A stretch of 33,075 nucleotides of DNA from contig CAIYDY010000453.1 in assembly GCA_903925015.1 (NCBI GenBank), positions 1 through 33,075 on the forward strand, given 5' to 3'. Source of the stretch: an uncultured Acidobacteriia bacterium. Its GTDB lineage: Bacteria > Acidobacteriota > Terriglobia > Bryobacterales > Bryobacteraceae. The notes beneath the pieces were generated by a model. That model was given only the letters and a program-made list of their open reading frames with translations. It had not been told where the DNA came from and made no database searches. Numbering within the stretch: position 1 is the stretch's first letter; the number at the start of each line of letters is the position of its first letter. Positions 1,791 to 19,009 of this stretch are shown in pieces. A program made the translations under genes and the position numbers.

Positions 1791-2417
1791 ATGAAATTGA
1801 TTCTCCTCCCGCTTATCGTTCTGGGCTCGATTGCGACCCTGGCAGCCGCTCCGGTCAGCTACACGGTGTCGGTGGACAGCTCGTCGATCTCGCACTCCAC
1901 GGCGGGTTACATCGAGATCCAGTTCAACCAAGCGAACGCTCTGACGTCGCTGGCGGCAACGGCGTCTGTGTTCAACTTCAGTGCCACCGGGTTTACATTC
2001 GACCACTCGTTGGACGGGAGCCTTGGCGGCGTGACGGGGTCGTTGTGGGCACCGCCGGTGGAGTTCGACAACACGGTGGGCGGCAGCAATTACTACGACG
2101 CCGGGGTGACGGCTTTCGGGACGGGCTTCAGTTTCGTGGTGACACTGGATGGTGCCGCGCTGGGTACGTCCTCGACCGACGGCAGCGAGTTTTTCGTGTA
2201 TCTGCTGGACACCAACTACAGTAACTTGCTGGGACCCGACGGGACGATTGCGGCCGCTGTGACGATCAATGGCGATACCACGATCACGACGAATCCGGTT
2301 TCTGGACGTTCCACAATCAACAGCTATACCGCGAGCGAGACTCCGGAACCGTCGACCGTGCTGCTGTTCGGCATCGGCGGGGCGATGGTGGCGATTCGGC
2401 GTCGACGCACGGCGTAA
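1791..2417 (+). CDS. PEP-CTERM sorted exported protein
   Basis: A 208-residue protein with an N-terminal signal peptide (MKLILLPLIVLGSIATLAAA, cleavage expected near residue 20). The central domain is beta-rich and Ser/Thr/Gly-rich. The C-terminus is a textbook PEP-CTERM tail: TPEPST, a hydrophobic helix, and a terminal RRRR cluster. Such proteins are exported by Sec, processed by an exosortase and delivered to the cell surface or extracellular matrix. No exosortase gene is in the window. The purine-rich AAAGGA about 12 bases before the ATG is a plausible ribosome-binding site. The function of the central domain is not recognisable. The gene faces the MurG-like gene and ends 22 bases from it. 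Confidence 0.88.
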   Translation: MKLILLPLIVLGSIATLAAAPVSYTVSVDSSSISHSTAGYIEIQFNQANALTSLAATASVFNFSATGFTFDHSLDGSLGGVTGSLWAPPVEFDNTVGGSNYYDAGVTAFGTGFSFVVTLDGAALGTSSTDGSEFFVYLLDTNYSNLLGPDGTIAAAVTINGDTTITTNPVSGRSTINSYTASETPEPSTVLLFGIGGAMVAIRRRRTA

Positions 2418-2442
2418 GTGAATCGCGACCGTATTTCGCTTA
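2415..2442. terminator. Hairpin between convergent genes
   Basis: TAAGTGAA (2415-2422) pairs with TTCGCTTA (2435-2442) over 8 base pairs including one G-T pair, with a 12-base loop. Both stop codons of the converging genes sit at the base of the stem. There is no U-tract, so bidirectional terminator function is only inferred. Confidence 0.4.
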
Positions 2443-3528
2443 GTTGTGCGAAGGGTTGATACCGTCCAACAACCTTTCGCACGCCAGCACCAGTGCCACG
2501 GCGGCAGGCTGTTCGGAGCCGCCACTACCTTGCCGCGACGGTTGGCCTTCTTTCTTCGCGTTGTTCAAAATAGCTTCAATGTGGGATGCAAGTGTACCCG
2601 GGTCCCACGGACCTGGCGGCACGGTGAGTGCTCCGGTCTGTTGAGAATAGAATCCGGCGTTGGAGAGTTGGTGTTCACGCGCGGTGCCTGGGGTGGGAAC
2701 CAGAAGACAAGGTATACCGCAAGCCGACAATTCCGCCAACGTGAGTGCCCCTGCGGCAGCGAGTGCGAATGTGGCAGTGGCGTAGACCGGGCCCATATCA
2801 TCCACGAAGCCATCCACGCGGGCGTCCAACCCGGAAGTATCATAGGCGCGCTGAACCACGCCAGGATCGCTGAAACCTGTCAAATGGCGGACGGTGAACC
2901 GGAGACCACGCCGCTGCAATTCCGAGAAGAGGCGCGGCGCCTCCGTATTCAGAACAGGGGATCCTTCCGAGCCGCCCAAAACGATGAAATTGGGGATTGA
3001 GGGCAGACTGCGCACTACCGGCCGGGCTGGTATTCCGGTGATTACGGCACGCGGCCCGAGGGTACGTCGCGTCTCTTCGAAACCAACTCCGACCAAGTCC
3101 GCGAAGGTCGAGATCAGGCGGTTTGCCAGCCCCGGCTGCACGTTGGACTCATGAATCGCGACCGGCAGACCGAGCGTTTTGGCGGCGATGCAGGTACCCA
3201 GGGATGCATAACCGCCAGTGCCGATCACTAGTTCTACCTTCTCCCGCCGCAGAATCCGCCGTGCGGCAACAATTCCCGGCGGAAGACTGGCCAATGCGTT
3301 TATGCGTCCGAGCCAGCCCTGGCGCTCCCATGGCTTCCCGGGGATAGTTTCCAACCGTACCGAATGGGCCGGAACAAGCTGCAGTTCCATGCCGCCGTGG
3401 CACCCGACAAAGAAGCCCTCGGCACCGGCGTCGCGCTGGTAAGCCTCGAGGAAGGCCAGTGCTGGCAGGATGTGCCCCGCGGTGCCACCACCGGTGACGG
3501 CAATCCGGCGTCGTGGCTTCGATCCCAT
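2440..3528 (-). CDS. murG: MurG-type UDP-GlcNAc:lipid I glycosyltransferase (divergent)
   Basis: Family GT28 protein of about 362 residues. MurG adds GlcNAc to undecaprenyl-PP-MurNAc-pentapeptide on the inner face of the membrane to make lipid II. Visible landmarks are the N-terminal loop GGGTAGHILPAL, GTGGYAS, HESNVQPGLANR (usual form HEQNxVPGLxNR), GIPARP, the UDP-site LGGSEG, and C-terminal AGALTLAELSACGIPCLLVP followed by EHQLSNA. I chose the ATG at 3528, which puts the first strand directly at the start; a longer frame to 3573 adds 15 unlikely residues. The gene is not surrounded by other mur/fts genes, unlike the usual division and cell-wall cluster. Several motif positions also drift (HESN; AAAGALT where most have SRAGALT). 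It could therefore be a second MurG or a GT28 enzyme acting on another lipid-linked acceptor. Family assignment is firm; the exact substrate is less so. Confidence 0.8.
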   Translation of the reverse strand: MGSKPRRRIAVTGGGTAGHILPALAFLEAYQRDAGAEGFFVGCHGGMELQLVPAHSVRLETIPGKPWERQGWLGRINALASLPPGIVAARRILRREKVELVIGTGGYASLGTCIAAKTLGLPVAIHESNVQPGLANRLISTFADLVGVGFEETRRTLGPRAVITGIPARPVVRSLPSIPNFIVLGGSEGSPVLNTEAPRLFSELQRRGLRFTVRHLTGFSDPGVVQRAYDTSGLDARVDGFVDDMGPVYATATFALAAAGALTLAELSACGIPCLLVPTPGTAREHQLSNAGFYSQQTGALTVPPGPWDPGTLASHIEAILNNAKKEGQPSRQGSGGSEQPAAVALVLACERLLDGINPSHN

Positions 3529-3606
3529 CCAGTTTCTAGCGTACAACGTTCGCTGAAACCTGGTTCCTTTCATGGAAAAGGATTCAGCCTTCGTGGTGCC
3601 GCCGAC

Positions 3607-4467
3607 TCAGGGGCGTTGGTTCAGGTCATGGTAGTGCCGACCCCGACCGAGCCTTCCATGGTCGGCGACACCCATGGTGAGATCCCGTTCCACACGGAAT
3701 GTGACCAAGGTTTCCGGGGGAATCCGAACCTCGCGGCCGCTGGTGGCGATCTGACCGACCGCACCTCCGGCAGCACCGACGCCCGCGCCTATCGCCGCAC
3801 CCTTTCCTCCCCCTGCGATGGCGCCAATGATCGCCCCAAGCGCCGCCCCGCCCCCAACAAACTTGCCAGTTCTACCGTTCGCACCAATGCCATCCCGACC
3901 ATCCCGAGCTTCAATGCGCTCCGGCGAGGCATCAATTCCGTAGCGCCGATCATCGACAACGACGGATTCCAGATCCAGAATCAAATCCTGGTCATGCGCC
4001 ACGCGAACGATCAGTTCGACGCTTGAGCCCTGCGGGATCGCGAGTTGGCCATTGCTTCCGAAGACGTCCGCATTCACGACCCCTGTAAAAATCCGTCCGT
4101 CGGCCCGCTTGGATCGGATCGCCTCGTTGGTGCGGACCGACAAGTTCATCCCTTGCTCGATACGGGTGGTGGCGTCGACGGGACGCCGTGCTTCGGCCAG
4201 GGTCTCAAATTCAGCGCGGCAACCGCGATCGACCCAGACGCCGTCGCGCTCACTGCCCCACGTGTAGCCCTCGACACAGCGAACGTTGCCCAGTTGCCGC
4301 CGGAATCGCGGGTTGCCGCGGGCGGAATCGACCGGACAAAAAGTACGTTGCCCGTTGGACGAGCACGAAAATACTAGATTCCGGTCACTCTGCGCGACGA
4401 CTGCGCCGGAAAACGGGATCAGCAGAAATATTCCAAAGCCGATGGCTTTTCCTAATTCACGATACAT
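3607..4467 (-). CDS. DUF3011 and glycine-zipper envelope protein
   Basis: About 286 residues from the ATG at 4467, which begins a normal signal peptide (MYRELGKAIGFGIFLLIPF, ending near VVAQ); a longer frame upstream to 4518 would bury it. The first mature domain matches DUF3011: four cysteines, a TWG turn, and WVDRGCRAEF at its end. The middle (SVRTNEAI to DDRRYGIDA) looks like a small beta domain. A glycine-zipper segment of about 35 residues follows (GAALGAIIGAIAGGGKGAAI and onwards), of the kind that inserts in or packs against membranes. A short RIPPETLVTFRVERDL tail closes it. DUF3011 has no known biochemical role. Location in the periplasm or outer membrane is inferred from the signal peptide and zipper. 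It is transcribed toward the MurG gene with a 78-base gap. Confidence 0.75.
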   Translation of the reverse strand: MYRELGKAIGFGIFLLIPFSGAVVAQSDRNLVFSCSSNGQRTFCPVDSARGNPRFRRQLGNVRCVEGYTWGSERDGVWVDRGCRAEFETLAEARRPVDATTRIEQGMNLSVRTNEAIRSKRADGRIFTGVVNADVFGSNGQLAIPQGSSVELIVRVAHDQDLILDLESVVVDDRRYGIDASPERIEARDGRDGIGANGRTGKFVGGGAALGAIIGAIAGGGKGAAIGAGVGAAGGAVGQIATSGREVRIPPETLVTFRVERDLTMGVADHGRLGRGRHYHDLNQRP

Positions 4468-4548
4468 AGCCTGTGGGCCCCCTGGCCCACACAGCAAGGA
4501 GCACGCGGAGGTCCACATGTTGAATTGCAGGAATTGGCGGACGGCGGA

Positions 4549-5334
4549 TCAGTTCTTGGGGCGAAGTTTGTTGGCGTCGGCGATCAGGAGGCGGAGCAGG
4601 GCGAGGGCTTTTTGGCCCCGCTGGTAGGGGCGGCCGTCCGGCGTGCGGACTCCCTGGCGGAACTCCAAAGCGTCCTGGATGGGGCCGTGCCACACGTCCG
4701 GAATGACGGAGAAGCCATGCTGGCAGGCACCGGACTTGGATGTGACGTCACCAACGGCGATGCCGTAATGGGCGCGCAGGAGGCCGGGCATGCAGAACAG
4801 GAGGGCTTGGGCCGTCATCGGCTTATCCTCGTTGCGGGACATCCAACTGCGCCAAAACGTGTTGATGCGGTCCAAGTTCCAGCGTTTGAAGACCATGGGA
4901 TCGGCCCAAACTTCGGGCGATTCCGGTCCCCGGATGGCCAGCGGGTGACTCCGGAGCGTCATCCAGACGGCCGGATTGGCATCGGCGGAACCGACGGTAC
5001 CCCAGTGACCCTCGATTTGGCCGTGGATTTTGGAGCTGAGGGCCGGGTCGCGGGCAAGGTCGGCCCAAGTGACGTAGATGCCCGAGAACCAGGGTTGCGG
5101 GTATTCCGTACGCAAAGCCTTGTGGACTTCGCCGAGAAGTAGAAGCTCCTCGCGCGGCGGCGGGTCCTGGTTGACTGCGACGAAGTTGATGTTGCTCAGG
5201 CCCTCCCGGAAGTCGTCCAACGCGACGGAACCGGTGAGGTAGAGTGCGGCTGGAGCGACGCCTGCCTCCTGTGCCAGTTCCAGATAGCGTTCAGTGATTT
5301 CGGCAACGGTGTCGGGAATTTGGAATTTTGTCAT
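4549..5334 (-). CDS. Aminoglycoside-nucleotidyltransferase-like protein, catalytic Asp replaced
   Basis: The layout resembles AadA/ANT(3'')-type adenylyltransferases: an N-terminal nucleotidyltransferase fold (LYLTGSVALDDFREG) and a helical C-terminal half with a VTSKSGA-like segment. In active relatives the GS motif is followed by S-D-I-D, whose aspartates bind the metal ions. Here that segment reads S-N-I-N, so both are asparagine. The later carboxylate strand (EVTIV in AadA) reads FSGIYV and has no acidic residue. Catalysis therefore looks lost, and a binding or regulatory role is possible. The start is uncertain: ATG 5334 gives a family-like N-terminus, while ATG 5400 adds 22 residues and has a better upstream AAGG. 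The fused efflux gene ends 32 bases upstream of the longer start, so co-transcription with the TetR-efflux operon is plausible. Confidence 0.7.
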   Translation of the reverse strand: MTKFQIPDTVAEITERYLELAQEAGVAPAALYLTGSVALDDFREGLSNINFVAVNQDPPPREELLLLGEVHKALRTEYPQPWFSGIYVTWADLARDPALSSKIHGQIEGHWGTVGSADANPAVWMTLRSHPLAIRGPESPEVWADPMVFKRWNLDRINTFWRSWMSRNEDKPMTAQALLFCMPGLLRAHYGIAVGDVTSKSGACQHGFSVIPDVWHGPIQDALEFRQGVRTPDGRPYQRGQKALALLRLLIADANKLRPKN

Positions 5335-5432
5335 TGGTTGGCGCGCCCCGTTGGGCAGCTCCAGAAAGGCGGAGTTGTTGCACGGGGCGACCGGGTGCAT
5401 GTACGAATATACCTTGAACAGGCCACAAACGC

Positions 5433-8400
5433 CTATTTGAGGGTGATGTTGCGCACTTCGATGGTCCGGGCGAGTGCGCGGTCCAAATTGGCTTGGGCAT
5501 CGCCGAAATCGGCCTCGGAGCGGGCCTCGCGGGTGCGGGCGGCGATCAGTTCGGTTTGGCGCTGCAATACCAGGAAAACCGTTGTGGTGCCGGCTTGGAA
5601 CTGGCGCTCCTCGCTGGCGTACTGGGCTTCGGCGCTCTTGCGCGCATCCACCGAGGCACGTAGCCTGGAGGTTGCCGAAACAACCGCCTGCAGGGCGTTG
5701 CGGACATCCTGCTCGACGGCCATTTCCACCTGCTGTTTTTGCGTCTTGAGTCGGCGTCCGTCAGCAGCGGAAATGGCTGCGGCGGCGGTCGCGGTGCGGT
5801 TGCGGAGGGGCAGCCCGACGGTTACGCCAATGACGGCGGTGTTGTAGTTGCCGGTACCGAGGGCGTTGAGGGACTGGCCGTAGCCACCGATGAAGGCCGA
5901 TGGGACGGACCCGCCTCCAAATGAGATGGGGGCCAGGGGCGGAAGGCCGGCTTGGGCGGAGAGTTGGTTGATCTGGCTCACCAAGGGTCCAAATGCGGCG
6001 GAAAACGGATTCGCGCCCGTCTGTGGAATGACTTTTCCAGCCAAACCGGTGTAACCGATGGTTCCGTATGCGTCGATCTGCGGCTTGGTCTGCTCCTTGC
6101 TAAGCTTTGCGTCCAAGCGGTTCACGTCCAGAGCGAGCTCGCTTTCCTTGAGCTCGGGACGGGATGCGAGGGCGGCCTTCACGGCTTCGTCCAAGGTGGG
6201 CATGGCGGCGGGTGAATCGGGAGTGTGGTCCGGCGTAAGGGACATGCCCCACATCAGGTCCGAGCGGTCTGCCAGCATGAGTACCTTGAGTGCGTTTTCG
6301 GCGGTGGTCAGGGCGCTTTCGGCGGCGAAGAAATTCTGTTCGAAGGTGGCGACCTGGGTCTGTGTCTGGACAATATCGACCGGCGCGAGCAGGCCCTGTT
6401 CCACCTGGCGGCGAATACTGGCCTCCTGCTCCCGTACGAGGCGGACGGCTTCTTTCTGGACTTCCAGATTGCGGACGGCGAATTCCAACTCGCGGTAGGC
6501 CTGCACCGACAAGGTGACCGTTTCAATCACGCGCTGGCGGAACTGTGCTTCGGACATCTCGATGTTCTTGCGGGCCACTTGGATCCGGTGGCGGTTGTCG
6601 TCGTACATCAGGCCGCGCAGCAACGGTTGGTTGTAGTTGAAGGTCAGTGACGTGGGGAACTGGGGGTTCAGGGTGTTGAAGGTGCTGTCACTGGCGGTCC
6701 GCTGGGAAGAAAAGTCGATCTTGTAGGTGCCGCCGCCCCATGGAGTTGTACCGGAGAGCTGGGGATCCACAAGAAGATCCTTGGTGGTGAGCTTTCCGTT
6801 GGTGGCGCCGCCCAGGGAGGAGCTGACCGGAGTCACGGTACGGGAATCGTGGAAGTTGAAGCCGAGCCTGGGGTCGTAGGCCCCGCGCGCACCACGGAGG
6901 GACAGGACCGCTTCCTCGCGGGCGATTCGGGAGACGGCAATGTTGCGGTCGTTGGCCAGAACACGCTGGATCACCTCGTTGAGCGTGATTTTGGCGGAAC
7001 CGAGGATGCCGATACGGACGGTCGGGTCGGCGGCCTGGACGGGCGTGGCGCACATGGAGAGTGCGAGCCCGACGGCCAGGAGGACGACCGTCACATCGGG
7101 GATTGGGTTTGCCTTGTTCCGGGCGAAGAGGCCCGAGACCTTGGCGAACATCCGGGAAAGGAACGTGGAGTTCCCCAAGTCTTCAAAGTAGGAGTAGAAT
7201 ACCGGCACCGCCAACAGCGTCAGCAGCAAGCAGAGCGATTGCCCGCCGACCACAAGGACGCCGATGGAGCGGTTGGTGGCCGAACCGACACCGTTCGAAA
7301 GCACGAGGGGTGCCATACCCGCAACCAGGGCGATCGTGGTCATCAGGATAGGCCGGAGACGGTCGCGGTTGGCCTGGATGATGGCATCGTACTGGGACAT
7401 GCCGGTTTTGCGCAGTCCGTTCATGTGGTCGATTTGGAGAATCGCGTTCTTCTTCACGATGCCGAAGAGCAGCAGGAGGCCGAGGCCGGAGAAGATGTTC
7501 ACGGTCTGCCCGGTCACCAGCAGCGAGAGGATGCCGAACGGGATCGCGAGGGGCAGGGTCATCAGAATCGTGATCGGGTGGATGAACGATTCGAACTGGG
7601 CCGCCAGCACGATGTACATGAAGATAAAGGTGAGCGAGAAGGCGAGGCCGAAGTAGTAGCCGGTGCGTCCCAGTTCCTTCGAGGTGCCCGCGGTGCCGTA
7701 GCGGTAGTCCGAACCCATGTGGAGTTCGTCGGCAGCCGCGGTGATGCCCTGCAGGATTGCGGCTTGCGAGCCGCCTGGAAGGGTATTCGCGCTGATGGTG
7801 ACCTGGCGTTGGCGGTTGATGCGGTTGACGGACGAGGGTCCCGAACCGGGCCGAATCCGGACCACTTCGTCCAGACTGACGGTGCCGCGCTTCTGGGACG
7901 GAATCGTGAGAGCCGCCAGCTGTTCCTGTGTGGTGCGGAACTTTTCCTGGGCGCGAACGCGGACGTCGTATTGCTCGTCCCCGGCGTTGAAGGTGGAAGC
8001 AACCTGGCCTGCTACGAGGGTATTGAGGGCCTGTTCGATATCGAGGACCGAGACGCCGAGGTCTGCGGCGCGGTCGCGGTCGATGACGAGGCGGAATTCC
8101 GGCTTGCCGGTGCGGAGCGTGGTGTCCGTGTCTGCGACGCCCGGAAGAGCGCTCAACTTGGCCATGAGAGCTGCCGAGTATTGCCCCAAGCGCTCCAGAT
8201 CCGGACCTTGGACGTAGAACTGGATTTCGGCGTTGCTGTTGCCACCGCCGACAGCCGAAACGAGCTCGACACCGGCGTGGATCTCCTTGGGATAGCTCTT
8301 GAGAAGCTTCCGGGTCAGTTGCATGACGTCGGTCTGGTTGACTTGCCTCTGCTCGATATCGCTCAACTTGACGAAGATGGCCGAGTTGTTGGCCGAATGG

Positions 8401-10214
8401 TCCTGGCCGCCACCGACTGTTGAAAGGGTGTGGATCACGCCTGGCAGCTTGCGGATGTCGCGGGCGATTTGTTCCGTCATCGCAGTGGTGGCGGCGAGTG
8501 AAGTACCCTCGGGAGTCCGGACGAGGACGTTGAACTGGGATTGGTCGTCACCCGGCAGGAAGTTCTTTCCGACGAACATGAACAAGGGCACGATGCTCAT
8601 GATGACCAGTGCGCTGAGGCCGAGCATGATGCCGCGGTGGGCCATGGCCCAGCGGAGCATGCTCGTATACGAGCGGTCGATGACCCGGAAGACCGGCGAG
8701 TCCTTGGAGGAGTGGGCGTCCTTGCCGTGCTTGGACGGCGGTTTCACAAAGCGCGAGGTCAGCATCGGGGTCAGGGTGAACGAGACCAGGAGGGAGACGG
8801 CAATCGCGAATGCCGACGTAAATCCGAACGAACTCATGAATCGACCGACGATGCCGCCCATGAAGCCGACCGGCAGGAATACGGCGAGCAGGGAGAGGGT
8901 GGTTGCCATAACGGCAAGGCCAATTTCGCCTGTGCCGTGGATGGCCGCCTCGACCGGGCTCATCCCCTTTTCCTCCATGAAGCGGTAGATGTTTTCGAGC
9001 ACGATGATGGCGTCGTCGATGACAATGCCGACCATCAAAGTGAGTGCCAGCATGGTGATCTGGTTCAGCGTGAGGCCCATGGCCGCCATCAGGGCGAAGG
9101 ACGAGATGATCGACGTGGGGATGGCGATGGACGCGATGAGGGTGGTTCGCCAATTCGCGAGGAAGAGGAAAATCACGATGGATGCGAAAAGGCTGCCGAG
9201 CACCAAGTGGTGCTTGATGTTGTCGACGGCTGCCACGATAAAGACGGACTGGTCGGCAATGATGCTGGCTTTTACATCCTTCGGCAGGGTGGCTTCGAGC
9301 TCCTTCAGGCGCTGCTTGACTCCATCGGCGGTCGCGACGGTGTTTTCGCCCGATTGCTTGGAGACGATCAGCGTCACAGCAGCTTGGCCGTCGAGACGCG
9401 CTGTGGTTTCGGGCTCCTCGTAGCTGTCCTCGGCATAGCCAATGTCGGAAACCTTGACGACATAGCCATTGCGGTTGGCGACGGCAATTTGGTTGAACTG
9501 TTCGGGTTTCACGACGCGGCCTTCGGTGCGGACGGTGAAATCCAGCTGGCCCTGGCGGAGGTCGCCGCCTGGCAGTTCGAGGTTCTGGCTCTTGATGGCG
9601 TTGAACAGGTCGTTGATGGTGAGGTTGTAGGAGCGCAGTTTTTCCGGATCGGCGTAGACATGGATTTCACGTTTTGCGCCGCCGACAATGCGGATCTGGC
9701 CGACGCCGGGGGAGCTTTCCAGCTTCTGCTTCAAAAGCTTGTCGGCGATCATTGTCACGTCGCGCAGGGACCGCTGGGCGGAGAGGCCGATTTGGAGGAC
9801 CGGAGCTGCGTCGGGGTCGAACTTTTGAACTTCCGGGCGCTTGGCTGTGGCGGGCAGGTCGTTCAGGATCTGGTTGACCTTGTTCTGGACTTCCTGGGCG
9901 GCGATGTCACCGTTCTTGGAGAGCAGGAAGGTGACTTGGACGAACGCGCGGCCTTCGGACGAGATGGAACGGAGTTCGTCGATCTCGCTGATGGTGTTGA
10001 CGGCTTCCTCGATCTTCTTGGTGATCTCGGTCTCGATTTCCTCGGGGGAGGCTCCGGGATCGGCCACCACGATTTGGACCGTGGGGATATCGACCTTCGG
10101 GAAAAGGTCGACGCCGAGGGTGTTGTAGGAGAACGCACCGATCACGACCAGGGTCATGATCAACATCGTGGCGAAAACGGGGCGTTCGATGCAGAGTTTG
10201 GCTAGCGCGTGCAT
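5433..10214 (-). CDS. RND (HAE1) efflux permease fused to a TolC-type outer-membrane channel
   Basis: One uninterrupted frame of 1593 residues from ATG 10214; a longer frame upstream adds 30 residues inside the adaptor gene. Residues 1 to about 1020 are a complete hydrophobe/amphiphile RND permease: the LFPKVDIPTVQI start, two large periplasmic loops, the TM4 proton-relay pair (GIVIDDAIIVLENIYR, D400/D401), and TM10 KKNAIL. TM12 ends at AVPVFYSYFEDLGN. A short linker leads to a signal-peptide-like helix (VTVVLLAVGLALSMCATPVQ, then AAD), followed by about 530 residues of outer-membrane efflux protein with paired TolC-like helical halves and coiled coils. The permease C-terminus is cytoplasmic, so this helix would carry the channel part across the membrane, and signal peptidase could release it. 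An in-frame ATG at 7151 would also make a secreted channel alone. The gene starts one base after the adaptor stop. Drug or solvent export is inferred from the HAE1 type. Confidence 0.92.
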   Translation of the reverse strand: MHALAKLCIERPVFATMLIMTLVVIGAFSYNTLGVDLFPKVDIPTVQIVVADPGASPEEIETEITKKIEEAVNTISEIDELRSISSEGRAFVQVTFLLSKNGDIAAQEVQNKVNQILNDLPATAKRPEVQKFDPDAAPVLQIGLSAQRSLRDVTMIADKLLKQKLESSPGVGQIRIVGGAKREIHVYADPEKLRSYNLTINDLFNAIKSQNLELPGGDLRQGQLDFTVRTEGRVVKPEQFNQIAVANRNGYVVKVSDIGYAEDSYEEPETTARLDGQAAVTLIVSKQSGENTVATADGVKQRLKELEATLPKDVKASIIADQSVFIVAAVDNIKHHLVLGSLFASIVIFLFLANWRTTLIASIAIPTSIISSFALMAAMGLTLNQITMLALTLMVGIVIDDAIIVLENIYRFMEEKGMSPVEAAIHGTGEIGLAVMATTLSLLAVFLPVGFMGGIVGRFMSSFGFTSAFAIAVSLLVSFTLTPMLTSRFVKPPSKHGKDAHSSKDSPVFRVIDRSYTSMLRWAMAHRGIMLGLSALVIMSIVPLFMFVGKNFLPGDDQSQFNVLVRTPEGTSLAATTAMTEQIARDIRKLPGVIHTLSTVGGGQDHSANNSAIFVKLSDIEQRQVNQTDVMQLTRKLLKSYPKEIHAGVELVSAVGGGNSNAEIQFYVQGPDLERLGQYSAALMAKLSALPGVADTDTTLRTGKPEFRLVIDRDRAADLGVSVLDIEQALNTLVAGQVASTFNAGDEQYDVRVRAQEKFRTTQEQLAALTIPSQKRGTVSLDEVVRIRPGSGPSSVNRINRQRQVTISANTLPGGSQAAILQGITAAADELHMGSDYRYGTAGTSKELGRTGYYFGLAFSLTFIFMYIVLAAQFESFIHPITILMTLPLAIPFGILSLLVTGQTVNIFSGLGLLLLFGIVKKNAILQIDHMNGLRKTGMSQYDAIIQANRDRLRPILMTTIALVAGMAPLVLSNGVGSATNRSIGVLVVGGQSLCLLLTLLAVPVFYSYFEDLGNSTFLSRMFAKVSGLFARNKANPIPDVTVVLLAVGLALSMCATPVQAADPTVRIGILGSAKITLNEVIQRVLANDRNIAVSRIAREEAVLSLRGARGAYDPRLGFNFHDSRTVTPVSSSLGGATNGKLTTKDLLVDPQLSGTTPWGGGTYKIDFSSQRTASDSTFNTLNPQFPTSLTFNYNQPLLRGLMYDDNRHRIQVARKNIEMSEAQFRQRVIETVTLSVQAYRELEFAVRNLEVQKEAVRLVREQEASIRRQVEQGLLAPVDIVQTQTQVATFEQNFFAAESALTTAENALKVLMLADRSDLMWGMSLTPDHTPDSPAAMPTLDEAVKAALASRPELKESELALDVNRLDAKLSKEQTKPQIDAYGTIGYTGLAGKVIPQTGANPFSAAFGPLVSQINQLSAQAGLPPLAPISFGGGSVPSAFIGGYGQSLNALGTGNYNTAVIGVTVGLPLRNRTATAAAAISAADGRRLKTQKQQVEMAVEQDVRNALQAVVSATSRLRASVDARKSAEAQYASEERQFQAGTTTVFLVLQRQTELIAARTREARSEADFGDAQANLDRALARTIEVRNITLK

Positions 10215-10215
10215 G

Positions 10216-11529
10216 CTATTTGCCGCTCCCCGCCGAAGCGTTGACGGTGAGCTGCGCGCCGTCGAAGAGATCGCCAAGGTTGGTGGTGGCGATGGTTTCC
10301 CCACCCTTCAGACCAGAGACGAGGCGGATGGACTCGCCGCTGCCCGGGCCAAGCGGTGCATCGCCAACCTGGACCACGCGCAAGCGGGCCGTGCCGTTTT
10401 CAACCACAAAGACTTGGTTGGAATCAGTGGTTTTGTCTCGAATAACGGCCAGTTTGGGTACGAAGACGGCTTGGACGCCGCCTGGTTGCATGACGCGGGC
10501 GGTGGCGAACATGCCCGGCTTCAAGTCATTGCCGGGGTTTTCAAATTTGGCTTCGAGGAGGAAGATGCGGGAATTGGGGTCCACGGACTGGTTGATGGCG
10601 GTTACCCTCCCGGTGAATTCCCTGCCCTGATAGGCGGATACAAGGGCCGTGACCTTGTCGCCGAGGTGCGCGAGCGAAGCTTTCTGTTCGGGAGTCTGGA
10701 GTTGCAGTTTCAGCGTGCCGATGCGGACGATGGTGGCGATCTTGTTGGTGAGCGCCACGTACTCGCCGGCTGCGACCGGGCGCGCCGTGATGTAGCCGTC
10801 GAACGGGGCGCGGATGGTGGTGTCGGCGAGGGCCTTTTCCGCCTGGGCGACCTGCGCCTTGACGCTGTCGAGCGAGGCACGCTGGGTGGAGATGATTTCG
10901 AAGCTTTGACGGGCGGCGTTGGCGGAGGCCTCGTACTGCTGGCGGACGGCGTTGGTCTGTGCCTCGGCAGTCTCCTGCTGGGTTCGGGCCCGCTCGTAGG
11001 CGGTCTTGGAGACGTCACCTGTTGCCACCAGATTGGCGTAGCGCTGGGCGTCGGCGGCGGCCAGCTTGGCCTGTGCCTTGGCGGATTCGAAATTGGCTTG
11101 TGCCGCAGCGACTTCCGGGACTTTGTTGGGGTCGAAATTGCCGGCGGTCCAGCCGATCCTGGACTGCGTTTGGCGGACTGCGGCGGTGGCCTCGGCCAGC
11201 AGCGCCTTCACCTGGTCGAGCCGCAGTTGGGCATCGCGGTGGTCCAGTTCGCAGACCACCTGGCCCTGTGTGACATGGTCGCCCACGTTGACCGGGGTCG
11301 AGAGGACGCGGCCCGCAACCATGGGGGCGATGTCTGAACTTTCGTCGGCTACAAAGGTGCCCGTGACTTGGAAGTCGGCAGGAATTTCTTTGGATTCGGC
11401 AATCGCGGTTGCCGTGGAAACGGGTTTCTGGACAGCGGTGGGAGCTGTTTCGACCGGGCTGGCCTTCGACCCGCAGCCGGTGAGCAGCAGGATCGGGAAG
11501 ATAAGTGCGCTGGTAAGTATGATTTTCAT
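10216..11529 (-). CDS. Periplasmic adaptor (HlyD/AcrA family) lipoprotein of the RND pump
   Basis: A 437-residue membrane-fusion protein. The N-terminus is a lipoprotein signal (MKIILTSALIFPILLLTGC) with an LTGC lipobox, so the mature Cys would be lipidated and anchored to the inner membrane. The domain order is typical: beta-barrel/lipoyl half (GRVLSTPVNVGDHVTQGQVV), a long alpha hairpin with many Ala/Gln/Lys heptads (about residues 100-200), the second lipoyl half (TIRAPFDGYITARPVAAGEY), beta-barrel (VTALVSAYQGREFTGRVTAI) and membrane-proximal domain. It bridges the RND pump and its outer-membrane channel. The start codon overlaps the TetR stop by four bases (ATGA), and the fused pump gene begins one base after its stop. 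All three are therefore translationally coupled. Confidence 0.93.
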   Translation of the reverse strand: MKIILTSALIFPILLLTGCGSKASPVETAPTAVQKPVSTATAIAESKEIPADFQVTGTFVADESSDIAPMVAGRVLSTPVNVGDHVTQGQVVCELDHRDAQLRLDQVKALLAEATAAVRQTQSRIGWTAGNFDPNKVPEVAAAQANFESAKAQAKLAAADAQRYANLVATGDVSKTAYERARTQQETAEAQTNAVRQQYEASANAARQSFEIISTQRASLDSVKAQVAQAEKALADTTIRAPFDGYITARPVAAGEYVALTNKIATIVRIGTLKLQLQTPEQKASLAHLGDKVTALVSAYQGREFTGRVTAINQSVDPNSRIFLLEAKFENPGNDLKPGMFATARVMQPGGVQAVFVPKLAVIRDKTTDSNQVFVVENGTARLRVVQVGDAPLGPGSGESIRLVSGLKGGETIATTNLGDLFDGAQLTVNASAGSGK

Positions 11530-14331: not shown

Positions 14332-15300
14332 ATGCAGAGCCACAAGCCACTCGTGTGCGCAACATCCTTATTGATATCGCTGGCCGCCGCCGCGGCTCAA
14401 GCGGGCACCGTTTCCTTTACAGGCGCAATCGTCGACTACACCATCTCCGCGGCGGGAACCTATGACATTGTTGCGGCCGGAGCGCAGGGCGGCGCTGGAT
14501 ATTTGGGCACGGGCGGTCTGGGGGCGGTGGCCGACGGGACTATTTTTCTCAATGCGGGCACGCTGCTGAAAATCGTGGTCGGAGGCCAAGGCGTCAGCGG
14601 CTATTTCGGTTCCAACTATGCCGGTGGCGGCGGTGGTGGCACTTTCGTCTACATCAGCGGGGCGTCCAACCCGCTCATCGTGGCGGGCGGCGGCGGCGGC
14701 GCTGGCTATTACGCGGTGAACGGCGATGACGGGCAGGCGGGCACCTCGGGCAGCAGCACCGGTTATGACGGCGGTGCCGGCGGTACGGGTGGACTCGGCG
14801 CCGCGGGTGGTTTCAGCACGGACAATCCAAGCAACGGCGGTGGTGGCGGCGGCTGGGTGGGCAACGGCGGCGACGGCTTCGGCGGCAGCTATCTGGCTCC
14901 GTACGGTGCCGGACTGGGCGGTGCGGGAGCCTTCACGTTCCTCGGCGGCTTGGGTGACGGCGGCGATGGGGCGCCGGGCCAATTCGCGAACGGCGGTTTC
15001 GGCGGCGGCGGTGGCGCGGGCTTCGGCGGCGGTGGCGGTGGCGGCGGCTATTCTGGCGGGGGCGGTGGCGATGGCTCCGACAATGGCGGCGGTGGCGGCG
15101 GCTCCTATGTCGACGCCAGCCTGACTGTCAACTCGATTGCGGCTGCCAGCAACAGCGGCGATGGCTTTGTGACGATCACGGCTGTGGATGCCTCGGTGCC
15201 CGAGCCGGCTGCATTCCTGCTCATGGGCTTGGGTATGGCAGGAATCGGCTTGGGCAGGTGGCACCGATCGCGCAGCACCGGGGTTCCGGCAAAAGTTTAA
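14332..15300 (+). CDS. Glycine-rich PEP-CTERM surface protein
   Basis: 322 residues. The signal peptide is MQSHKPLVCATSLLISLAAA, with cleavage expected near AAQAG. A short beta domain (TVSFTGAIVDYTISAAGTYD) is followed by about 200 residues of repeated Gly-Gly-Gly blocks separated by aromatic or Asn/Asp turns. This resembles the glycine-rich domain that follows beta modules in many bacterial surface proteins and in the ALK-type receptor family. The tail is PEP-CTERM: VPEPAAFLLMGLGMAGIGL, then RWHRSR. It is therefore probably exosortase-processed and surface-displayed. GGAG about 13 bases before the ATG serves as ribosome-binding site. It is the first of five consecutive plus-strand genes and ends 12 bases before the first collagen-like gene, suggesting one extracellular-structure operon. 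Confidence 0.85.
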   Translation: MQSHKPLVCATSLLISLAAAAAQAGTVSFTGAIVDYTISAAGTYDIVAAGAQGGAGYLGTGGLGAVADGTIFLNAGTLLKIVVGGQGVSGYFGSNYAGGGGGGTFVYISGASNPLIVAGGGGGAGYYAVNGDDGQAGTSGSSTGYDGGAGGTGGLGAAGGFSTDNPSNGGGGGGWVGNGGDGFGGSYLAPYGAGLGGAGAFTFLGGLGDGGDGAPGQFANGGFGGGGGAGFGGGGGGGGYSGGGGGDGSDNGGGGGGSYVDASLTVNSIAAASNSGDGFVTITAVDASVPEPAAFLLMGLGMAGIGLGRWHRSRSTGVPAKV

Positions 15301-15312
15301 AGGACAACAACT

Positions 15313-16221
15313 TTGAAATCCAGCTTTGTGGGCATATTCGTTTATCGCCGGGCCTTCGGTCTGGGTATTGCTTTGCTCGCCTCGGCATGCGGTGCGGCGG
15401 CGCAAACGGGCGTTCTGTATGCATGCGTCACCTCGGCCAGCGGCGGGAATCCCGTCGGCCAGGTGCGTTTTGTGGCGTCGGGCACGCCTTGCAATTCGGG
15501 CGAAACGCAGGTTGCGTGGAATGTGAGCGGTCCGCAAGGACCACAGGGCGCGGCGGGGAACACCGGCCTCACAGGACTTGCGGGAGCTGCGGGACCAGCT
15601 GGGCCTGCCGGCTCCACCGGTCTTGCGGGTCCAACAGGCGCAACTGGCTCCGCAGGTGTACCAGGCCCGACTGGGCTCCCTGGAGCCACGGGTGCGGCTG
15701 GAACCACGGGCGCTGCGGGCGTGTCTGGAACAACCGGAGCAGTGGGCGCGACCGGAGCGGTGGGACCGACCGGTCCCGCGGGAGCGACCGGCGCGGAGGG
15801 TCCGGCTGGCGCAGCGGGGGGGGCGGGTGCGACCGGAGCGCAGGGGCCGACCGGACCAACCGGGGCACAGGGCACGGCAGGGGCCGCAGGCGCGACTGGC
15901 GCAACGGGCTCGGCGGGCGCGGGCGGTGCGACTGGACCGGACGGTCCAGCGGGTCCAGCCGGTTCGACGGGAACATCGGCTCCGTCGGGAGCGGTCTCGG
16001 GCAACGTCTTCACTGGCGGAAACCCGGTGGTGGGCGCGCTTGTGTACATTCCCGGATACAGCTACACCGGTTACACGGGTCCGGGGGGCGCTTTTCAGTT
16101 CGACAACCTGCCGGCGGGCACCTACACAATTGTCGTATCCGTGGGCGGAGCGACGAAGGTGACCACATCAGTCACGGTTGCAAGCAGCCTTGTGGTGCTG
16201 CCCTCCGTGCTCAGTTACTAA
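15313..16221 (+). CDS. Collagen-like exported protein 1
   Basis: 302 residues from a TTG start preceded by AAAGGA; no ATG fits the signal peptide. Domain order: signal peptide (cleaved near GAAAQ); a short Cys module with C38, C60, W69 and RFVASG between them; about 50 uninterrupted Gly-X-Y triplets from G73 to about residue 222; then a beta-sandwich of the carboxypeptidase-regulatory type ([20 protein letters not shown] to VLSY). The X and Y positions are mostly Ala, Thr and Pro with almost no charge, as in other bacterial collagens where Thr-rich triplets replace hydroxyproline. It should form an extracellular trimeric rod. The two cysteines are candidates for disulfide locking by the DsbA-like protein encoded downstream. 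A C26 near the end of the signal peptide does not make a good lipobox. Next gene: 14-base gap. Confidence 0.85.
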
Positions 16222-16235
16222 AGGGCCCTACGAAG

Positions 16236-17126
16236 ATGATGAAACCAGGAAAAGCGTTACAGGCCGCTACGGTAGCCGCCGGGTGCTTCGGAATAGCCTC
16301 GACGGCTTGGGCGCAGGCGACAACTCCGATCTACGTTTGTGCTCCCCAGACCGGCACCGGTACCCAGGTTCGGTTCGTGACGGCGAGCCAGGCATGCACT
16401 AGTGCCGAAACGCGCTATCAATGGAATGTTGCCGGCGCCAAGGGTGCGACGGGCGGGGTGGGTGCGCGCGGAGCGAGCGGGCCCACGGGACCTGCCGGAG
16501 CTACGGGTGCCCGTGGGGCCACGGGCGTACCCGGTGCCGCCGGAGCCCTCGGGCTGGCAGGCGCGCAGGGTCCGATGGGACCGGTCGGCGCAACTGGCTC
16601 GACGGGGACGCAGGGTGCGACTGGTGCCAAGGGCGCAGCGGGATTGCAAGGCCCGCAGGGGCCGGCCGGAGCGTCGGGACCGCAGGGGCTACAAGGACCG
16701 CAGGGTCCACAGGGTGCGGCGGGGTTGGCCGGAACCGCCGGAGTGAGCGGACCGCAGGGTGCGCAGGGAGCGACAGGGCCGGTGGGAGCCACCGGCAACA
16801 ACGGGGCCGCCGGCACAGCGGGTCTGCAGGGAGCCACCGGCAACACCGGTCCACAGGGACTGCAAGGCGCAACCGGAACTTCGGCTCCCTCGGGAGGCGT
16901 GACGGGTTTTGTGTTCACGGGCGGAGCGGCCGTGGCTGGTGCTCAGGTATCGCTCCAAGGGCATGGCTTCACGGTCTACACGACTGCGACCGGCGCGTTC
17001 CAGATGGACACAGTACCGCCCGGCAGCTACACGGTACTGATCTTCAATCCTGCCGGCACACAGGTGGCCGTGTCAGCCGTGGTGGTTGGAAGCACTTACG
17101 CGAGCATGGGCACGGTGAGCTACTAG
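16236..17126 (+). CDS. Collagen-like exported protein 2
   Basis: 296 residues with two adjacent ATG codons (16236 and 16239). It shares the architecture of the preceding protein: signal peptide to about AWAQ; Cys module with C35, C54 and W63; 50 Gly-X-Y triplets from G67; the same TSAPSG hinge; and a C-terminal beta-sandwich ([20 protein letters not shown] to TVSY). The Cys-x8-Trp-x3-Gly spacing into the helix is identical in both. The triplets include more Gln and a few Lys/Arg than protein 1, which could allow charge pairing between different chains. The stop TAG is directly followed by the ATG of the DsbA-like gene without a gap. Confidence 0.85.
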
Positions 17127-17927
17127 ATGCCGCCGTTCGGATGGACGCGCCGGAGCCGGGAATTGGCTCGGGGGGCGTCCCGAACCCTGCTGCTCGGGGC
17201 CGCCATGGCGCTCGGAGCGGCTGTTGTTTGGGCGGCGGAGGTTCCAGCCCCGCAGACCGGGAACGCGGAAATACTCTCCGAATTGAAGGCGATCCGGGCG
17301 CTGATGGAGAAACTCGTGGCCGCTTCGGAAAGCGGCGGGCGCGCACTTCCGGCCAGCACACGAGCCTTGCTTCCGGTTATTCCCTCGCCCTATGCCGACG
17401 GCTCGCCCACGGCACCGGTTACGATCGTGGAATTTACGGATCTGCAGTGTCCATTTTGCCGACAGTTCCGAATGACCACATTCCCCGAGTTGAAGAAGCA
17501 GTACATAGACACGGGCAAGGTTCGTTTTCTCAGCTTCGATTTCCCGCTGGAAGCCATTCACCCGATGGCGATACCCGCGGCGAAGGCCTCGCGGTGCGCG
17601 GTGGAACAGGGCAAGGGCCTCCAGATGCGGGAGGCGATTCTGACGAACAACGAAAATCTGAGCGCCGACATTTTTGTCACACTTGCGGGGGACCTTGGCA
17701 TGGACAAAAAGTCCTTTCAGGCCTGTGTGGCGGACCCGGCCCGCTTCGGCGATGAACTGAAGGCAAACCAAGCCTACGGGAAGGCGGCGGGTGTGGACGG
17801 CACACCGAATTTCGTGGTTGCGCCCACCTCGGCTTCGAAGATCGAGGGTGAGAAGATTCCCGGCGCGCTGCCCTTGGATGCGTTCCGAGCAGAGATTGAA
17901 AAGCTGTTGGCGGCGAAGGCCCGCTGA
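17127..17927 (+). CDS. DsbA/BdbD-type thiol-disulfide oxidoreductase
   Basis: 266 residues. An Arg-rich n-region and hydrophobic helix (LLLGAAMALGAAVVWAA) export or anchor it in the periplasm. A short coiled segment (NAEILSELKAIRALMEKLVA) precedes the thioredoxin fold with the inserted helical domain of DsbA-like proteins. The active site is CPFC (C108, C111) after VEFTDLQ, and the cis-proline loop is VDGTPNFVV. Such proteins oxidise or isomerise cysteine pairs in exported substrates. The gene starts at the base after the stop of collagen-like protein 2 and precedes collagen-like protein 3. All three collagen-like proteins carry a conserved Cys pair next to the helix, so they are its likely substrates; this is inference from context. 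Confidence 0.87.
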   Translation: MPPFGWTRRSRELARGASRTLLLGAAMALGAAVVWAAEVPAPQTGNAEILSELKAIRALMEKLVAASESGGRALPASTRALLPVIPSPYADGSPTAPVTIVEFTDLQCPFCRQFRMTTFPELKKQYIDTGKVRFLSFDFPLEAIHPMAIPAAKASRCAVEQGKGLQMREAILTNNENLSADIFVTLAGDLGMDKKSFQACVADPARFGDELKANQAYGKAAGVDGTPNFVVAPTSASKIEGEKIPGALPLDAFRAEIEKLLAAKAR

Positions 17928-17947
17928 GTGAGGAAATTGATAATTCT

Positions 17948-19009
17948 ATGAACCATTCCTACCGTTTCCCCCGGACTGTCCGGTTTCTGCCCGCGCTGCT
18001 TCTGGCAATTGTGCCGACGACTGAGGCGCAGACCACGTCAGGCACGATCTCGGCCTGTGTGGATGGGGCGACCGCCCAGATGCGGATCCTGCCAACGGGC
18101 GGCCAGTGCGCTGCGGGCGAGAGTCTGCTGCAGTGGCAGGCAGCCGGAATTTCAGGCGCGCAGGGTGCCACCGGGGCGAACGGGCTGCCGGGGGGACACG
18201 GTCCGATGGGTGCGACAGGTACGGCGGGTACAACCGGTGCGCAAGGCCCGGCTGGCAACATGGGCTCTGCGGGAGCCACAGGCGCGCCCGGGCCGCAGGG
18301 ATTCGCGGGCGCAGCGGGTCCTGCAGGTCCCGGCGGGGCGACGGGAGCGACGGGTGATGCGGGACCCACCGGATTGACGGGACTAGCAGGAGCGGCCGGT
18401 GTGGCCGGCGCAATCGGGCCGACAGGTTTGGCCGGTCCCACGGGGACGGCGGGTGCCATCGGTGCGGCCGGTCCGGCGGGTTTGGCCGGAGCAGCGGGAG
18501 CCACGGGAGCGCCCGGTCTTGCGGGTGCGGCGGGGGCGGCCGGATTGCAAGGCCCGCAAGGGCCCGCCGGACCGACCGGCGCACAAGGGGTGGCCGGAAC
18601 ACTGGGCCCGGCAGGCTCCATTTCGGGCGTGGCAGCGTGCAGCGGAACGCCGGTTTCGGCTGGAACGTTGGTATATATACCGGGCCGGGCGTTTACGGCC
18701 TATGCCGACAGCAGTGGCAACTTCCAGTTCAACCAAGTCCCGGACGGATCGTATACGGTTACGGTTGAACGGGGCGGGACCACCTTGGGCACCGCGAGTG
18801 CCACGGTGGCTGGGGGGGCGGTGGGGCCTCTATCGATCTCGGCATGCAGCGGGGGCACCACGTGCGGAGCCCTAACCTGCAGCGGAACCACGCCCTATTG
18901 CAAAACGACAGCGACGACGAACACATGCGTTCAGTGTCTTACCGTTTCTAATTGTCTCCCGGGCCAAAAGTGCTCATCCGCCAAGTGCATTGGGACGCCC
19001 TTGGTTTGA
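17948..19009 (+). CDS. Collagen-like exported protein 3 with Cys-rich tail
   Basis: 353 residues; AGGA 13 bases before the ATG. It has a signal peptide (to about TTEAQ), the same Cys module (C37, C54, W63), and about 53 Gly-X-Y triplets from G67. A regulatory-type beta-sandwich follows (SGVAACSGTPVSAGTLVYIP to VGPLSISAC). Unlike its two siblings it ends in an extra 50-residue cysteine-rich module (TTCGALTCSGTTPYC to KCSSAKC) with spacing like small disulfide-knot domains of extracellular proteins. It is the last gene of the operon. The module could be an adhesive cap or a site for cross-linking. The DsbA-like gene directly upstream would suit its many disulfides. Confidence 0.85.
   Translation: MNHSYRFPRTVRFLPALLLAIVPTTEAQTTSGTISACVDGATAQMRILPTGGQCAAGESLLQWQAAGISGAQGATGANGLPGGHGPMGATGTAGTTGAQGPAGNMGSAGATGAPGPQGFAGAAGPAGPGGATGATGDAGPTGLTGLAGAAGVAGAIGPTGLAGPTGTAGAIGAAGPAGLAGAAGATGAPGLAGAAGAAGLQGPQGPAGPTGAQGVAGTLGPAGSISGVAACSGTPVSAGTLVYIPGRAFTAYADSSGNFQFNQVPDGSYTVTVERGGTTLGTASATVAGGAVGPLSISACSGGTTCGALTCSGTTPYCKTTATTNTCVQCLTVSNCLPGQKCSSAKCIGTPLV

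Follow-up and report, generated by a model that had tools for sequence, protein, structure and literature searches.

Why would a bacterium encode three collagen-like chains of nearly equal helix length in one gene run with a thiol oxidoreductase? The question is raised by a 33,075-nucleotide stretch of an uncultured Acidobacteriia bacterium (assembly GCA_903925015.1, contig CAIYDY010000453.1; the whole stretch analysed is called the window below). Five co-directional genes, which we call operon A, occupy positions 14332-19009 of the window on the forward (+) strand, where all features described for this operon lie. In order, they encode a Gly-rich PEP-CTERM protein, collagen-like chain 1, collagen-like chain 2, a DsbA-like enzyme, and collagen-like chain 3, with successive gaps of 12, 14, 0, and 20 bp. 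We read the locus, with moderate confidence, as a five-gene matrix operon in which the chains assemble together, most likely as an ABC heterotrimer, the DsbA-like enzyme makes bonds within each chain, and the PEP-CTERM protein is a partner at the cell surface. The decisive evidence beyond the three chains alone is a second operon.

All three chains have the same module order: a signal peptide, an N-terminal module with two cysteines (N-module), a Gly-X-Y helix, and a CarboxypepD_reg-like C-terminal domain (C-domain). All match PF01391 well above its cut-off of 27.2 bits (73.4-81.9 bits). Chain 1 (15313..16221; TTG start, 302 residues, PF01391 at 73.4 bits) consists of an N-module at 15403..15528, with 2 cysteines 22 apart and then the motif Cys-x8-Trp-x3-Gly, a helix of 50 uninterrupted triplets at 15529..15978, and a C-terminal beta domain at 15991..16218 that matches PF13715 with 41.3 bits (cut-off 32.2). 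In chain 2 (16236..17126; 296 residues, 81.9 bits), the N-module lies at 16314..16433 with its cysteines 19 apart, and a helix of again 50 uninterrupted triplets follows at 16434..16883. Its C-domain (16896..17123) reaches 31.6 bits with PF13620, just below the cut-off of 32.3, and aligns with the domain of chain 1. Chain 3 (17948..19009; 353 residues, 80.2 bits) has an N-module at 18029..18145 (cysteines 17 apart), 53 uninterrupted triplets at 18146..18622, and a C-domain that continues into a Cys-rich tail (18614..19006; PF13620 at 30.4 bits, likewise just below 32.3). The first-pass annotation had counted about 50, 50, and 53 triplets and had seen the same Cys-x8-Trp-x3-Gly entry into the helix in each chain; our counts reproduce the former, and the latter is present in 3 of 3 chains. 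The C-domain is a feature that it did not contain.

A search for the DsbA-like protein in 61 genomes, including that of the window (G000), gave 2 close matches besides the window itself, one in a relative (G017:C339) and one on another contig of the window's own genome (C193). Both are 55% identical to the window enzyme (268-270 bits), compared to 44% and 158 bits for the next best match, and both of these genes adjoin collagen chains. In the relative, the second operon (operon B) is intact, with PEP-CTERM, DsbA, c1, c2, and c3 genes in one tight run (gaps of 1, 15, 25, and 18 bp with start codons that we chose) and chains of 52, 51, and 51 triplets. The conserved three-chain neighbourhood with DsbA that the first-pass annotation had suggested looking for in related genomes therefore exists, in diverged form and with the PEP-CTERM gene kept. 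In the genome of the window, operon B is split by an assembly gap: contig C193 (94% nucleotide identity to G017) ends inside chain 1, and contig C357 (91%) begins at the end of chain 3, with a C-domain match there. The gap between the two is about 1.9 kb relative to G017. Since an operon was lost in this way, counts of collagen operons may come out too low where assemblies are fragmented. The genome of the window thus has both operons, and in G017 only B was found. The chain order c1-c2-c3 is the same in both, with the DsbA gene located between c2 and c3 in A and ahead of c1 in B.

What has been conserved between these chains is the length of the helix and not its sequence. Measured from the first helix glycine to an anchor glycine of the C-domain (a homologous residue picked from alignments), the chains of operon A span 157, 157, and 160 residues and those of operon B 158, 158, and 160, so that chains 1 and 2 are matched to the residue within each operon. 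Different chains of matched helix length, as expected of a heterotrimeric collagen, are thus present twice. By contrast, the identity of X and Y residues does not exceed what triplet shuffles give for A1-A2, A1-A3, A2-A3, A1-B1, and A2-B2 (the number denotes the chain), where identity is the best of 13 ungapped registers and compensating indels could give the same result. As had been noted from the window alone, the X and Y residues differ between helices of nearly equal length. A local exception to this divergence is GLPGGHGP, which the chain 3 helix of either operon reads from its triplet 5 onwards. Overall, helix length is held within 3 residues while helix sequence has diverged to about shuffle level.

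To what extent could such a match arise by chance? When proteins were drawn at random from the 29 N-module proteins that have 10 or more triplets, 3 of them spanned 3 triplets or fewer in 5% of the trials and 6 of them in 0.08%; the test ignores common descent and is a guide only. The 29 proteins come from a set of 42 open reading frames (ORFs), in which one member (L070) matches the module only weakly and two others (L081 and L105) look like the same gene. Taken from the 3 chains alone, the length match is borderline with respect to chance.

The chains also pair by type across the 2 operons. C-domain identity is 66% for A1-B1, 50% for A2-B2, and 40% for A3-B3, compared to 31-43% between the chains of operon A and 28-39% between those of operon B. 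Both A3 and B3 have a Cys-rich tail, with 10 cysteines after the helix in each. A tree of the 6 complete chains (the 2 partial operon B chains from the genome of the window were left out) groups A2 with B2 (support 95/93) and A3 with B3 (94/89, just below the mark for strong support of the tool used). Because of this pairing by type, the 3 chain types most likely predate the duplication of the operon and have been kept since.

A second matched triple, unrelated and of another architecture, is found in another genome of the genus (G001:C24, positions 130000-142000; locus L171). Here, 3 adjacent collagen-like genes have helix spans of 402, 406, and 406 residues. Their frames, read from stop to stop, lie at 2243-4915, 4888-7527, and 7293-10241 of the locus (+), and each consists of an N-terminal domain, a long collagen tract, and beta-propeller-like repeats (labels assigned by eye). 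The first tract is interrupted several times and the second is uninterrupted. Identity is 41-48% between the N-domains and 40-51% between the C-domains, while that of the helix X/Y residues lies close to shuffle level (the observed values are reached by 68, 17, and 40 of 200 shuffles). The N-domain of this type occurs at E 1e-22 in 27 of 237 family genomes, with three together only in G001. Elsewhere, a locus in G152 (L176; G152:C151:1-5955) has 4 collagen-like ORFs next to one another on the same strand, whose tracts are short (14, 15, 13, and 10 triplets). An apparent two-gene collagen cluster (G011:C40) was discarded, as it appears to be one gene read in 2 frames.

The matched lengths bear directly on how the chains would assemble. 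Equal lengths are expected of chains wound into one triple helix, whereas homotrimers set no relative length; 3 diverged yet matched chain types would therefore fit a heterotrimer best. The main rival holds that there are 3 homotrimers of equal rod length, packed side by side or end to end, with the lattice packing setting the length. We consider this unlikely, if not strongly so. In its favour, no chain lacks an N-module or a C-domain of its own, and modelling of Clostridioides difficile BclA supported homotrimers and not heterotrimers (PMC13188886). However, equal homotrimers do not explain why 3 types recur in operon B, nor why a second family has 3 matched chains, and the residue-exact match of chains 1 and 2 would be tighter than packing needs. 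The helices hold 0-4 K/R/D/E residues each, chain 2 being basic in both operons (+4 and +3), and these are too few for interchain charge pairing to set the register. Co-assembly of the chains is likely, and a heterotrimer is the probable form rather than co-packed homotrimers.

The first-pass annotation had derived possible co-assembly from matched rod length together with the shared Cys modules. The length argument is strengthened by operon B, where matching recurs despite scrambled helices, and favours co-assembly; a role of the Cys modules as cross-links between chains is not supported. An AlphaFold2 model of the chain 1 N-module, based on a 20-row alignment, shows a small three-stranded unit within 50 residues (mean predicted local distance difference test score (pLDDT) of 82.7). 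It has no profile matches in the PDB up to E 1, and none in a fold search at E 0.001 or better. Among 20 aligned modules, 19 retain both cysteines (L082 is without the first), and for 14 of the 20 the locus has just one N-module gene. Outside the operons, proteins with the module have 0-58 triplets beside it (42 ORFs, some cut by contig ends), and the module occurs singly on proteins in records titled Chloroflexi, Myxococcota, Actinomycetes, and others. One locus (L069; G246:C26) has 2 tandem N-modules in a 118-residue frame that is open at the contig start and stops after 4 Gly-X-Y triplets. The mature chains have 2, 2, and 12 cysteines in both operons and none inside the helix; these numbers depend on cut points chosen by eye, as were the signal peptides of the chains and of the DsbA-like protein. 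Given the single-gene loci, the conserved cysteine pairs, the even counts, and the three-stranded model, we rejected interchain links through the N-modules as the main reading. The bonds are most likely intrachain, within the N-module pairs and within a Cys-rich knob of chain 3. Since the module is common on single-chain proteins and the cysteine counts are even, the enzyme is also more likely to make bonds within chains.

That enzyme (17127..17927; 266 residues) is a DsbA-like thiol oxidoreductase of the Thioredoxin_4 type, with matches to PF13462 (88.9 bits) and PF01323 (52.3 bits) that are both above their cut-offs and a CPFC motif at about 17448-17459. It starts 0 bp after chain 2, confirming the zero spacing reported earlier. 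Its best sequence matches in the PDB are the DsbA entries 4pwp and 4pwo, and BdbD and a copper-sensitivity (Scs) protein were also matched. An AlphaFold2 model built from a two-row alignment had a pLDDT of 48.7 and was not used. Is the enzyme dedicated to the chains? It may serve other secreted proteins and lie here by chance. DsbA-like matches are common (59 of the 61 genomes, own included), and with a profile built from 6 DsbA-like proteins no match is found within the 12-kb locus that holds the matched triple in G001, nor near the N-module genes at other loci, many of which have flanks of only about 1.5 kb. The DsbA genes that adjoin the chains are nevertheless the closest group found, with the clear drop in score and identity described above, and the gene stays inside the run in both operons even though its position differs. 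An accidental neighbour is therefore unlikely. Of the earlier proposal that a dedicated DsbA sets the disulfides, the association stands, since the gene is kept in both operons; the bonds it would set are probably intrachain, and the G001 triple apparently does without such a gene nearby.

The first gene of the run (14332..15300), as had been noted, encodes a PEP-CTERM protein: this Gly-rich secreted protein matches PF07589 with 25.5 bits (cut-off 20.7), and its gene ends 12 bp before chain 1. In operon B, its counterpart is directly upstream of the DsbA gene and is 58% identical over 299 columns (62% in a separate search). An exosortase (PF09721) is encoded in the same genome at G000:C426 (E 2.9e-73), so that both the C-terminal PEP signal and the processing enzyme are present, pointing to the cell surface. 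The Gly-rich protein occurs in 10 of 237 family genomes, own included. Of the 10 places where it lies outside the operons, 9 were examined (G013:C279 was left out) and none has an N-module or DsbA-profile match. The protein also weakly matches a leukocyte tyrosine kinase receptor structure (7nx0, E 0.007), perhaps through its Gly-rich composition only.

How widespread is the arrangement? The N-module profile finds 5 of 237 family genomes at E 0.01, with strong matches only in G000 and G017, and, at E 0.001 with the own genome included, 6 of 399 genomes at class level and 18 of 396 at phylum level. In these searches of family, class, and phylum, no genome besides G000 and G017 has 3 N-module matches in one run; only 18-30 candidates per genome were scored first, and weak members can be missed. 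A scan of contigs with 2 short peptide patterns from chain 1 gave 15 loci, of which only the G017 contig (L078) has the operon.

Several of these observations, and some further ones, weigh against the reading of a co-assembling heterotrimer served by its own enzyme. Of 237 family genomes, only 2 carry the three-chain module, no DsbA-like match lies near the matched triple in G001, the Gly-rich PEP-CTERM protein is also found elsewhere without chains, and the CarboxypepD_reg-like domain is not known to act in chain selection. For the third chain type, the C-domain identity between operons (A3-B3, 40%) equals that between A3 and A1 (40%). X/Y identity is borderline for A3-B3, A2-B3, and B2-B3 (34, 38, and 46 of 300 shuffles reach the observed value) and mildly above shuffles for B1-B2 (16 of 300) and B1-B3 (5 of 300). 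An unrelated collagen gene in the own genome (C45) also has 50 triplets, so this length on its own is not special. Finally, the lengths could have stayed similar through common descent from one chain if indels were rare.

The last point leads to another explanation, namely that the chains arose by ordinary tandem duplication of an ancestor with about 51 triplets, have had few indels, and act independently. Paralogy of the 3 chains is clear, their modules follow the same order, and low-complexity X and Y residues can diverge by substitution alone. As a control, we counted the longest tracts in another collagen family of the genus, where filtering kept 21 of 29 loci, of which 13 were cut by a locus or contig end, and the 8 complete genes have 50, 67, 15, 27, 24, 16, 62, and 11 triplets, the value of 50 being that of the C45 gene. 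In a putative ortholog pair with 71% identity, one corresponding tract has 22 versus 37 triplets, while 3 other tracts differ little or not at all (8/8, 18/18, and 18/16), which also counts on the side of inheritance; length changes thus occur, but not in every tract. Against the background of tracts that do change length within the genus (22 to 37 in one pair, 11-67 across 8 members), lengths held within 3 residues, although C-domain identity falls as low as 40% and the helices resemble one another about as much as shuffles do, are difficult to attribute to inheritance, and we regard independent duplicates as quite improbable.

The heterotrimer model that we favour would have the 5 genes produce a secreted matrix in which the 3 chains assemble together, most likely in a 1:1:1 ratio. 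The rise of the collagen helix is 0.286 nm per residue, and a rod of about 50 triplets would be roughly 43 nm long. A disulfide-held N-module would sit at one end of the rod and the CarboxypepD_reg-like beta domain at the opposite end, where chain 3 would add a Cys-rich knob. The adjacent DsbA-like enzyme would oxidise the N-module pairs and the chain 3 knob within each chain, and the Gly-rich protein, processed by the exosortase, would be the likely surface partner.

The closest precedent is found in Pasteuria ramosa, whose collagen-like (Pcl) genes occur in ordered triplets (PMC10329263). The genes of a triplet belong to 3 sequence types, share one orientation, and follow a specific linear order; the triplets are duplicated, and the organisation is said to seem unique to that species (PMC13233619). 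The likeness is one of gene organisation: 3 types, one orientation, fixed order, and duplication as a unit are all seen in operons A and B. P. ramosa belongs to another phylum (Bacillota), and the available text mentions no DsbA or PEP-CTERM partner for Pcl; the word 'heterotrimer' is absent from the main text of PMC13233619. Streptococcal Scl1/Scl2, Legionella Lcl, and other bacterial collagen-like proteins also have a Gly-X-Y tract between other domains, and the NCBIfam Scl/Lcl models match the window helix. The window chains are, however, far below the NCBIfam cut-offs, have other end domains, and come as 3 distinct chains per operon. The window enzyme shares its Thioredoxin_4 and DSBA domains and the CPFC motif with DsbA, BdbD, and ScsC, from which it differs by its location inside a collagen operon. 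Trimeric ScsC isomerases are known, and PDB entry 4xvw is such a protein. In animals, ABC heterotrimeric collagens and C1q are built from 3 distinct chains with matched helix length and globular ends, and the window chains may be likened to them by analogy, being distinct, length-matched, and equipped with what are probably globular ends. Literature searches on bacterial heterotrimers, on collagen-like proteins of Acidobacteria, and on heterotrimer co-expression in prokaryotes, covering titles and abstract starts in open-licence PMC, found no such operon among the matches listed. Correct heterotrimers are hard to achieve, according to a review.

Elsewhere in the window, a 1623-residue ORF at 5433-10304 (-) reads as a fusion of an RND efflux pump with a TolC-like outer membrane factor, and an adaptor-like gene is at 10216-11529 (labels by eye). 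At the left end (122-771), tandem 234-bp repeats lie within an ORF of repeated segments.

A matched three-chain operon together with its diverged copy suggests that collagen mixed from three different chains, known from animals, may also be built by bacteria. The boldest reading is that the operon encodes an ABC heterotrimeric collagen native to bacteria, along with a dedicated disulfide catalyst, and that length-matched three-chain clusters arose more than once in the genus (the N-module type here and the differently built type of G001), so that heterotrimeric collagen evolved in bacteria independently of animals. In our view this is an evenly balanced proposition. Operons A and B make heterotrimer formation in bacteria directly testable and, if the proposition is true, they would provide an ABC collagen whose chain-selection signals are natural ones and which could be tested in Escherichia coli.

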